From Anaerolineae bacterium (GTDB lineage: Bacteria > Chloroflexota > Anaerolineae > J102): 32,673 nucleotides of DNA. The DNA is taken from positions 1 through 32,673 of the forward strand of contig JALXCB010000194.1 in the NCBI GenBank assembly GCA_026991225.1, written 5' to 3'. The notes beneath the pieces were generated by a model. It saw nothing but the letters and a program-made list of their open reading frames with translations, had not been told where the DNA came from and ran no database searches. Shown piece after piece: positions 6,689 to 31,498 of this stretch. The stretch's first letter is position 1. Each line of letters opens with the position of its first letter. The position numbers and the translations under genes were made by a program.

Positions 6689-6842
6689 GTAACTACTAAG
6701 GTCGCGCCGCCGCTTTTTGCCACGAAGACACGAAGAAAACGAAGGCACGACGTATTTTTCTTTATTTTTCCTTTCGTGTCTTCGAAAAACTTCGAGCCTT
6801 CGTGGCTTTTGGCGGCCTAAAGTCCAGTACGTTAGCAGTTAC
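6689..6842. mobile_element. MITE-like element with 8-bp target duplication
   Basis: Ends GTAACTACTAAGGT / reverse complement of right end GTAACTGCTAACGT; flanked by perfect direct repeat GTTCAGGT (6681-6688 and 6843-6850). Confidence 0.8.
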
Positions 6843-26913: not shown

Positions 26914-27088
26914 ATGCGTATACACGCTTCTCCTCATAGCGAGGCAAAAACCACGAAGACACGACGACACGAAGGGGTAAGTAGCAGGTGGGAGGTAGCA
27001 GGTAGCAGGTGAAAAGCCTCTTATTGAGCAGACTTGCCGCTTGCGACCTGCAAACTTGCAAACCTGCATTGGCTTCGTTCCTTCGAGC

Positions 27089-27540
27089 GGGTGCGTCCCA
27101 AATTATGGGCGGGTTGCGTCTGACGCCCCGGAGGTGAACTCCGGGCTAGAGGCTGTTATGCACTTTTCCGCCCTCAAAGGTCAGGATCGCCGCATCGGAG
27201 GTTGAAATTCGCCGCAGATAACGCGGATAAAGCAGATTTCCGCGGATTTTTTCAAAAGGATGCCATCTTTTTTCCGTAACAATCCGTGTTGATCCGTCGC
27301 ATCAGCCTCATCCGTGGCGAATTGAAACGCACGTCACCCACAAAATCACGCCAAATTGGCGATAAGTTCATAACAGGCTCTAGTAACGACGCCCCCTCAA
27401 GGGGGCTTTCCGAGCCAGCCCGCGCCCAAAGCCGGGTTCACCCGGCGTGGTTTTGTAGCCCGGCGCTTCAGCGCCGGGTGGAGCCCGCATGACCGAATTC
27501 CTGATGACAACGCGATTGGCCAAAATTTTAGGACGCACCC
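27089..27540. mobile_element. Non-autonomous element, copy 1 (interrupted), GGGTGCGTCC TIRs
   Basis: GGGTGCGTCC 27089-27098 and GGACGCACCC 27531-27540; carries the four-hairpin cargo; 218 bp after removal of the insertion and duplicated CTAG. Confidence 0.8.
27150..27379. mobile_element. 230-bp MITE inserted into copy 1, CTAG target duplication
   Basis: AGGCTGTTATGCACTTTTCCGCC at left; reverse complement of right end AGCCTGTTATGAACTTATCGCC; CTAG at 27146-27149 and 27380-27383. Confidence 0.8.
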
Positions 27541-27549
27541 CTTTCTCTC

Positions 27550-27765
27550 GGGTGCGTCCCAAATGGGCGCGTTGCGTCTGACGCCCCGGAGGTGAACCTC
27601 CGGGCTAGAAACGACGCCCCCTCAAGGGGGCTTTCCGAGCCAGCCCGCGCCCAAAGCCGGGTTCACCCGGCGTGGTTTTGTAGCCCGGCGCTTCAGCGCC
27701 GGGTGGAGCCCGCATGACCAAATTCCTGATGACAACGCGATTGGCCAAAATTTTAGGACGCACCC
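27550..27765. mobile_element. Non-autonomous element, copy 2 (intact), GGGTGCGTCC TIRs
   Basis: GGGTGCGTCC 27550-27559, GGACGCACCC 27756-27765, 216 bp; hairpins at 27585-27604, 27616-27631, 27656-27671, 27684-27703. Confidence 0.85.
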
Positions 27766-27842
27766 CTTCGAGCCTTCGTGGCTTTTGGCGGCCTAAAGTC
27801 AAGTACGTTAGCAGTTACATCGAATTTCAGAATGACTTCAGT

Positions 27843-28610: not shown

Positions 28611-30200
28611 TCAGGGTTGAAGGGCAGCGGGGAAGGTTTGGATCATCGGCAGGAAGGCGCGGTGGGGGTTCAGCGCCGTGCGGGCGTTGGCGACGCCCCA
28701 GCCGTAACCATTGTTGGGGATGGCGTCGGGGGCGTCGCCGCCACAGCCCTGGGCGGAAGTGTGCGGGTCGGCGGTGGTGGTGAGCCAGGCGCGGATGCGT
28801 TCGGGATGGCCTTTGAGGTCGGGGCGGGCGGAGAGCAGCAGTGCAGCCACGCCCGCAACATGGGGCCCGGCCATGCTCGTGCCGCTGGAACTGCCGTAGC
28901 GGTTTCCGGGAATGCTGGATACGACGGAGACGCCCGGGGCGCTGATGTCGGGCCCGGCGCGGGTCTGGCCGTCGTAGGTGACGGGCCCCCGGCTGCTGAA
29001 GCTGGCCAGATTGTCATTGCTGTCGGTCGCGCCTACGGTAAACGCTTTGGGATAGATGGCGATGGGATCGCGGATGGAGCCGCAGGAAGGGCCGCTGTTC
29101 TGGGCGGAGGCGACCACCAGGATGCCCGCGGCGTCGGCCGCGTTCAGGGCCGGTTCGATGACATCCAGATTCTCGGGTTTGCAGCCCTCATCCGGGGGAC
29201 AGCTCCAGGAGTTGTTGATGATGTCGGGGGCTTTGGCGGGATCGTCGTCGGCGGTTGGATCGCCGCCGATGGGCCAGGGGGCGACGAACCATTGGAAGCA
29301 TTCGATGTAGGTGGAGGGCATGCCCCAGCCCCGCTCCATGTTGCGACAGCCGATCCAGCGGGCGCCGGGCGCGATGCCGATGGGGTGCGCTGCGGCCTGG
29401 GGCCAGTCTGCGGCGTCGGGGGCAAGGTCGTTACCCACCATCGTGCCCATGGTATGCGTGCCGTGCCCGTAATCGTCGCAGGGTTCGGGCGAATCGAGTC
29501 CGCAGGGGTTGTCGCCGGAGAGGTTGGGGTTCAGTTCGTGGATGGCGTCGTGCCAGTTGTAGTCGTGGGAAACGGCGTCCGCGCTCGCATCGTAGCCGCG
29601 ATAGGCCCGCTTGAGGGTCTCGTGAGTCCAATCGTAGCCGGTGTCCTGGCCTGCGACCACAACGCCCTCGCCGGTGACGCCCTGCACCCAGGCCCAGGGC
29701 GCTTCCACCCGTTCGATGCCCCAGGGGATGGTTCCTGAGGCGGTCTGGATGGCGGTCGACGGTTCGGGGTGAGGGCCCGCGGCCCGAAAAGGCGCGTTGG
29801 AAGTGACTCGACGCACCTGTGAGAGGCGCAAGAGCTGGTTCAATTGCCCGGCATCCACCTGCACCCGCACCGCATTCACCACCCAAAAGGGTTGATAGTT
29901 CATGCCCATGCGGTCCAATTGCGCCAGGAGAGGGCGTTGGGTGGCGGCGGCGTGTTTTTGCAGTGTGTCGACGACCCAGCGCCCGCGAGCGGTTTTGTCG
30001 GGCAGGGCGTAGGCGGGATCAAGATCGGCCTGGGGTAGCTGGATGATGACGTCCGCCTTGCCCCGGGCGTCCAGCTCCTCCCAGACGGAGGCGGTCACCC
30101 GCGGGTCGGGCGGAGGCGCGGCCATGAGCGAACCGTCGGTTGCGAGCAAGAACAAACCGGCGAGAAAAACCAGCAGAGCAAATGACAATTGTTGTTTCAT
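28611..30200 (-). CDS. S8 family (subtilisin-like) serine peptidase
   Basis: 529 aa, signal peptide; VVVAGQDTGYDWTHETL (Asp), YGHGTHTMGTMVG (His), SSGTSMAGPHVAGVAALLLS (Ser). Confidence 0.95.
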   Translation of the reverse strand: MKQQLSFALLVFLAGLFLLATDGSLMAAPPPDPRVTASVWEELDARGKADVIIQLPQADLDPAYALPDKTARGRWVVDTLQKHAAATQRPLLAQLDRMGMNYQPFWVVNAVRVQVDAGQLNQLLRLSQVRRVTSNAPFRAAGPHPEPSTAIQTASGTIPWGIERVEAPWAWVQGVTGEGVVVAGQDTGYDWTHETLKRAYRGYDASADAVSHDYNWHDAIHELNPNLSGDNPCGLDSPEPCDDYGHGTHTMGTMVGNDLAPDAADWPQAAAHPIGIAPGARWIGCRNMERGWGMPSTYIECFQWFVAPWPIGGDPTADDDPAKAPDIINNSWSCPPDEGCKPENLDVIEPALNAADAAGILVVASAQNSGPSCGSIRDPIAIYPKAFTVGATDSNDNLASFSSRGPVTYDGQTRAGPDISAPGVSVVSSIPGNRYGSSSGTSMAGPHVAGVAALLLSARPDLKGHPERIRAWLTTTADPHTSAQGCGGDAPDAIPNNGYGWGVANARTALNPHRAFLPMIQTFPAALQP

Positions 30201-31498
30201 GCGTCCAGGTTGGCCCCCAGCCCGCGCAGGGTTTCCACAAAGCCGGGGAAGGAGTCGGCCGCGCAGGCGATGTCTTCGACCACGGTGGTGCCGTCCGCGG
30301 CCAGGCCGGCAATGGTCAGGGCCATGGCCAGCCGATGGTCGCCGTGGGACCAGACGAGCGCGCCTTTCAGCCGCGTGGGGCCGTGCACGACGAAGCCGTC
30401 GGGCCGTTCCTCGATGTCTGCGCCCAGCTTACGCAGCTCGGCGACGGTGGTGGCGATGCGGTCGGTCTCTTTCACCCGCAATTCCCCCGCGTCCCGCACG
30501 ACGGTCTCGCCCCGGGCCTGGGTGGCGATGACTGCGAAAACGGGCAGTTCGTCGATCATGGTCACGATCTGGTCGCCTTGCAGGGTGATTGCTTTGAGTG
30601 CTGTGGGGCGGATGTGAAGGTCGCCCACGGGTTCGCCGCCGCTCTCGCGCCAGTTCGTCAGGGTGACGTCCGCGCCCATGGCGATGAGGGCGTCGAGCAG
30701 CCCGCGGCGGGTGGGATTGACGCCCACGCCCAGGATGTGGATGTCGCTGCCGGGGAGGATGGCGCCCGCGGCCAGGAGGAAGGCGGCGGAGGAGAAGTCG
30801 CCGGGGATAGTGATGTCGAGGGGCGCGATCTCGCTGGGAGGCTGCTCGGAGCTGATATAATGGCCTTTGCGCAGGATGGGCGCGCCCATGCTGGCCAACA
30901 TGCGTTCGGTGTGGTCGCGGGCCGGGCCGGGTTCGATGACTACGGTCAGGCCCAGGGCGTAGAGGCCGGCGAGGAGGATGGCGCTTTTGACCTGGGCGCT
31001 GGCCACGGGCAGTTCGTATTCGATCCCGCGTAAGGGGGAGCCGATGATGGCCAGGGGGAGCAGACGGCCTTCATCCCGACCGACGATCTGCGCTCCCATC
31101 CTCCGCAACGGCTCGGTGATGCGCCCCATGGGGCGTTTGCGCAGTTGGGGGTTGCCCGCCAGCACGCTGAAAAAATCCTGTCCCGCCAGCAGGCCCGCGA
31201 CCAGGCGGGCTGTGGTGCCGCTGTTGCGGCAATCCAGCACCTCTTCCGGCTCCTGCAGGCCGTGCAGGCCCCGCCCATGCACCAGCCATTCCCCGGCGTC
31301 GGTCTCCCGCACCTCAACGCCCAGCTTGCGCGCCACGTCCAGGGTGGCCAGGGTGTCGCCGCTGCGCAGGGCGTTGCGCACGCGGCTGACGCCGTCGGCG
31401 ATGGCGCCGAAGAGGAGGGCGCGGTGGGTAATGGATTTGTCGGCGGGGACGGTGGTGCGGCCTCGCAGCGGGCCGGGGGTGATGATGAGCTGGTCCAT
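30197..31498 (-). CDS. aroA: 3-phosphoshikimate 1-carboxyvinyltransferase (EPSP synthase)
   Basis: MDQLIITPGPLRGRTTVPADKSITHRALLFGAIADG, LDCRNSGTTARLVAGLL, GNPQLRKRPMGRI, RVKETDRIATTVAELRKLGADI, HGDHRLAMALTIAGL. Start set at ATG 31498; the track ORF is 28 codons longer. Confidence 0.95.
   Translation of the reverse strand: MDQLIITPGPLRGRTTVPADKSITHRALLFGAIADGVSRVRNALRSGDTLATLDVARKLGVEVRETDAGEWLVHGRGLHGLQEPEEVLDCRNSGTTARLVAGLLAGQDFFSVLAGNPQLRKRPMGRITEPLRRMGAQIVGRDEGRLLPLAIIGSPLRGIEYELPVASAQVKSAILLAGLYALGLTVVIEPGPARDHTERMLASMGAPILRKGHYISSEQPPSEIAPLDITIPGDFSSAAFLLAAGAILPGSDIHILGVGVNPTRRGLLDALIAMGADVTLTNWRESGGEPVGDLHIRPTALKAITLQGDQIVTMIDELPVFAVIATQARGETVVRDAGELRVKETDRIATTVAELRKLGADIEERPDGFVVHGPTRLKGALVWSHGDHRLAMALTIAGLAADGTTVVEDIACAADSFPGFVETLRGLGANLDA

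Follow-up and report, generated by a model that had tools for sequence, protein, structure and literature searches.

The window analysed here, a stretch of 32,673 nucleotides from an Anaerolineae bacterium, carries at 27089-27765 two MITE copies of the same family, A and B, in direct orientation. The pair is interrupted within A by a second MITE, flanked by TA, and is itself lodged in a host repeat, so that the locus nests three element families (Table 1). An initial annotation had described a transposon in a transposon in a repeat with the empty site preserved; this arrangement was observed again, and the coordinates, the terminal repeats, the 9-bp spacer and the 8-bp duplication of CTTCGAGC were all re-found in the sequence. 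The duplication can alternatively be read as CCTTCGAGC, provided that it takes in the final C of the right end. The length of about 217 bp proposed for both copies suits B (216 bp) and fails for A, which spans 452 bp and holds the nested MITE of 232 bp. The 161-bp part common to A and B contains two differences (27384/27609 and 27495/27720) where a single one had been reported.

Table 1. Features of the nested locus and of the second host-repeat copy in the window
Feature	Position	Strand	Remarks
Host repeat (third family), left part, ending in target copy	26949-27088	+	about 75-87% similar elsewhere
Left target duplication CTTCGAGC	27081-27088	.	read from sequence; single in paralogous empty sites
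MITE copy A	27089-27540	+	452 bp including nested MITE; TIRs GGGTGCGTCCCAAATT / ATTTTAGGACGCACCC
Nested MITE (second family)	27149-27380	+	232 bp; TIRs GAGGCTGTTATG / CATAACAGGCTC
Spacer CTTTCTCTC at the A/B boundary	27541-27549	.	9 bp; recurs in C164 and C16 arrays
MITE copy B	27550-27765	+	216 bp; 4-bp deletion after GGGTGCGTCCCAAAT
Right target duplication CTTCGAGC	27766-27773	.	read from sequence
Host repeat, right part	27774-27818	+	ends ...ACGTTAGCAGTTAC; same family as 6790-6842 and others
Second host-repeat copy	6689-6842	+	one-sided empty site, right flank only

The host repeat family counts about 40 members or more; its 140-bp left part resembles about 40 other places in the genome, several of which cross the insertion point. 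The empty site had been placed at 6790-6842, where 52 of 53 bases equal those of 27766-27818; this right-flank match stands, but the left side diverges and the site is one-sided. Two-sided sites are found elsewhere in the genome. When the two flanks were joined at one CTTCGAGC and compared with the genome, several host-repeat copies were found to span the joint, and the four that were aligned (contigs C136, C122, C18 and C61) each display CTTCGTYCCTTCGAGCCTTCGTG uninterrupted with a single CTTCGAGC. These are two-sided paralogous empty sites and stronger evidence than the match at 6790-6842. Since the sequence to the left of A and that to the right of B form one repeat in them, they also argue against a chimeric contig. 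Two candidate orthologous sites were rejected, one within the genus where the downstream gene is kept but the upstream gene differs, the other the C16 ortholog, where the intergenic DNA differs.

The nested MITE in A lies between duplicated TA dinucleotides (27147-27148 and 27381-27382). Its family counts 45 genomic matches, several at 100%, with TA on both sides in nearly all listed copies. Identical or nearly identical copies occupy six places, including the window, C155, C86, C187 and C80, and this near-identity could reflect either recent activity or spread through conversion. On C155, two TA-MITE copies lie within the same MITE backbone as the one in the window. C137 offers a three-level nest at 30015-30627, with the host repeat in a TA-MITE in a MITE of the 216-bp type, the whole bounded by a perfect 9-bp duplication, TGCCTGGAC.

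In the 3.87-Mb genome, 51 matches to the 216-bp element were obtained; a search for its end sequence gave 219 occurrences, compared with 3 for a reversed-pattern control. Family copies devoid of target duplications had been proposed as an argument against transposition; this outcome was not observed. At the loci examined, about 30 elements of several size classes have duplications, which in the majority of intact copies measure 9 bp and in a few 8 bp. Short, non-coding, bounded by TIRs and present in many copies with constant-length duplications and paralogous empty sites, these elements have the attributes of MITEs. Shortness, lack of coding capacity, TIRs, target duplications and high copy number are likewise reported for bacterial MITEs such as MITEAba12 from Acinetobacter (PMC6382973); the copies described here are in addition arranged in tandem at several loci, with a spacer fixed at 9 bp. 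A related family, with ends GGGTGCGTCCTAAATGAGTTGG, is found in the genome of the window and is common in other Anaerolineae, also with 9-bp duplications.

End-to-end junctions of exactly 9 bp were counted with up to two mismatches over part of the genome sequence, giving 16 in the genome of the window (1 in the control) and 10 in the congener G015 (0 in the control), with no excess over the control in the remaining members of the genus. For 110 randomly placed elements, about 0.003 such pairs would be expected. Together, the counts of ends (219 versus 3) and of junctions (16 versus 1) put the MITE pattern far above chance. In G015 (contigs C343, C110, C569 and C766), the many 9-bp junctions have AT-rich spacers, AAATCAAAA being found at two loci.

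Nearly all junctions of the genome under study fall within two spacer classes. Class I, with spacer CTTTCTCTC, comprises the window, a trimer on C164 and both contig ends of C16; class II, with TCCTTTCTC or a one-base variant, is found on C70, C112, C137 and C196. The 4-bp deletion of copy B is also carried by the copies adjoining CTTTCTCTC on C164 and C16, and in every case it lies beside this spacer. All five copies in the window and C164 arrays have a SNP that, at each of these loci, is situated about 23 bp inside the outer right end; the only other copy with it is a partial one on C71. The outer duplications differ, CTTCGAGC in the window versus AAAGAATG on C164, and a comparison of the 1-kb flanks of the arrays revealed no mutual similarity; the same inner junction is thus present at unrelated loci with different outer duplications. 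The same holds in class II for C112, with outer duplication CAAAACATA and inner spacer TCCTTTCTG, versus C70, C137 and C196, and this second array lineage behaves like the first.

A full-length IS sharing one end with the MITEs, for which a search had been proposed, was found in the congener G009 (DRQW01000106.1, Anaerolineae HyVt-591). The IS of G009 measures 1463 bp, has the ends GGGTGCGTCCCAGATATTTGGCAA and TTGCCAATAATTTGGGACGCACCC, and encodes in its second ORF an ISKra4-family transposase (256 bits, cut-off 205). When the right end of this IS, GGGTGCGTCCCAAATTATTGGC, is read inwards, it coincides over 22 bp with the left end found in a subset of MITE copies; the commoner left end departs from it at one base. 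The IS has no clear flanking duplication. Its two overlapping frames (L210:133-1477, same as L187) are offset by +1 close to a T5C5 run, owing perhaps to a programmed shift, to mutation or to a sequencing error; in the ISMich2 group the offset is -1. Mutator-like transposases of the ISKra4 family (p-MULT 4) generate direct repeats of 8-9 bp, and Chloroflexi are among their hosts (PMC3942029). The elements studied here agree with that family in their ends (GGGTGCGTCCC...), in the 22-bp identity with the congener IS, in their 8-9 bp duplications and in their Chloroflexi host, and differ from it in being 120-260 bp long and without a transposase gene. Shared ends and duplications of the right length are present, but a cognate transposase was not found in the genome: no match to the ISKra4 (NF033572) or DDE_Tnp_1 (PF01609) models was obtained in the 97%-complete assembly, from which we infer mobilisation in trans. 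In this genome the cognate gene may have been collapsed in assembly or left unbinned. On C155, an end-to-end span of 1453 bp, considered as a candidate full IS, resolved into two separate MITEs.

Some arrays carry hints of how tandem copies begin. On C166, C181 and C15, and on C343 of G015, the spacer is the same or nearly the same as the outer duplication and the two MITEs are different, which indicates repeated insertion at one target. The AAATG-type family has a 9-bp target consensus, roughly WWWTSAWTT (p < 0.002), suggesting that a duplicated target stays attractive. A target set drawn mainly from the genome of the window gave no consensus (p = 0.39), so that restacking there would need another cause, either targeting beside resident ends or recombinational duplication. 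The latter is exemplified on C137 by a duplicated composite, in which the nested MITE occupies the same place in both copies.

Taken together, these observations suggest that the locus probably represents a non-autonomous ISKra4-type MITE in dimeric form, inserted in one piece. The dimer would have originated elsewhere, extra copies having been added beside a resident copy with one 9-bp target between neighbours. An ISKra4-type transposase supplied in trans would then have acted on the outermost terminal repeats while passing over the inner ones, so that the A-spacer-B unit was moved into CTTCGAGC. Through later recombination between copies, A and B would have become homogenised and A would have acquired the nested TA-MITE, or a flank variant of it. 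This reading is favoured by the shared spacer with the B-type deletion beside it, the right-end SNP, the differing outer duplications and the unrelated flanks, and also by the two-sided paralogous empty sites and the 22-bp end identity with the congener ISKra4-family IS. Movement of a common ancestral array as a unit would explain the pattern in the fewest steps. The initial suggestion that the pair moved as one unit is accordingly strengthened by the spacer, the outer duplications and the flanks, without being proven. Counted against it are the lack of a family transposase in the assembly, the evident conversion between copies, the lack of an orthologous site in the genus that would decide between movement and conversion, and the fragmentation of the assembly at repeats.

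The main rival to movement in one piece is the conversion of single copies by existing arrays, whereby one MITE would have inserted at CTTCGAGC and dimerised later through unequal homologous recombination or gene conversion with an array already present. We consider this rather unlikely, although exchange between copies is well represented in the genome. A and the C155 copy have a nested MITE identical over 230 bp and a common adjacent two-base deletion in backbones only about 95% alike, A and B share a SNP absent from every other aligned copy, and the composite of C137 is duplicated. The sharing between A and C155, with the SNP private to A and B, makes conversion between copies likely in this genome; that A and B are nearly identical seems to reflect homogenisation within the array. 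The near-identity had been taken to show a recent doubling, but this conclusion is not warranted: arrays elsewhere have both the spacer and the B-type deletion, which implies a dimer older than its insertion in the window. Readers of genomes should be cautious here, since the near-identity of two copies gives no date of duplication. Dimerisation in place would require independent conversions at the window, C164 and C112; moreover, as the array SNP is so near the outer right end (about 23 bp) in the window and on C164, both tracts would have had to extend nearly to that end.

An assembly error, in which array sequence from another place was wrongly built into a locus with one true copy, is very improbable, even though the assembly counts 201 contigs, of which C16, C70, C90 and C26 end inside MITE copies, and N gaps interrupt the arrays of C112 and C196. 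Copy B duplicates no other copy examined and has in common with A a SNP seen in none of the other aligned copies; the outer flanks, with their shared duplication, are contiguous in the paralogous empty sites; C164 and C16 have the same arrangement, and another genome of the genus contains 9-bp junctions with spacers of other sequence. Least credible of all is a pair of independent insertions, A landing first and B then entering its flank. Different MITEs are indeed stacked at one 9-bp target on C166, C181 and C15 and in the congener G015, but such stacking predicts a spacer equal to the outer duplications, whereas CTTTCTCTC is observed against CTTCGAGC, and CTTTCTCTC recurs at other loci. Independent stacked insertions are the likely origin of the founder array and not of the window locus.

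ISKra4-type elements and MITEs are already known. So are IS copies in tandem and double insertions of the head-to-tail kind (PMC7780238, PMC12368964). What is new is the recurrence of CTTTCTCTC in the C164 and C16 arrays beside the same 4-bp-deleted variant, and a partial literature search returned no precedent for a bacterial MITE multimer that seems to move as a unit. Head-to-tail double insertion of eukaryotic DNA transposons was described by McGurk and Barbash (2018), as cited in PMC12368964. Those tandem copies are likewise able to seed longer arrays; the present case differs in concerning bacterial MITEs, with arrays of the same spacer at unrelated sites under new outer duplications. ISCth4 likewise forms end-to-end junctions with a short spacer of flanking DNA, and its IS256-type transposases are relatives of the Mutator-like enzymes. 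Its spacers vary from 6 to 8 bp (PMC7780238), whereas nearly all junction spacers here are 9 bp; no promoter was found at the junction. As in composite transposons, the outer ends of two flanking elements would act together; the modules here are MITEs in direct orientation, with only 9 bp of DNA between them. The pair is thus an unusual variant of well-known mobile DNA and no new kind of system.

More tentatively, ISKra4-type MITEs of this genus might build tandem multimers by adding copies beside resident ends, these multimers serving as transposition units. If true, bacteria would have a path leading from MITEs to mobile arrays resembling satellites, in which the 9-bp spacer is a heritable founder tag. 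With the spacer as its tag and with its outer duplication, each array lets both its formation and its movement be read from sequence. It thereby becomes testable whether a Mutator-type bacterial transposase is able to use outer ends and bypass inner ones, and in what way tandem copies start.

The four hairpins described initially as the cargo of the element correspond to four palindromes located in copy B (27585-27604, 27616-27631, 27656-27671 and 27684-27703). Their reading as a structured RNA was rejected: in an alignment of 32 copies they fold well and covary little, 3 of 63 pairs having a compensatory case, and a search of the hairpins against Rfam returned nothing reaching the gathering score. 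In these covariation and Rfam checks of the four palindromes, no evidence of a function of the MITEs beyond mobility was seen. For the final pair of hairpins in both copies (27430-27478 and 27655-27703, minus strand), a match to Acido-Lenti-1 RNA (RF01687) stays below the gathering score (31.2 bits versus 37, E 5.7e-05); this likeness is either due to chance, given paired GC-rich hairpins, or a hint at a motif riding on MITEs. On C16 (8391-8758), both copies of the 216-bp type carry the same paired change in one hairpin, from GCCCCCTCAAGGGGGC to GCTCCCTCAAGGAGGC, by which the palindrome is preserved.
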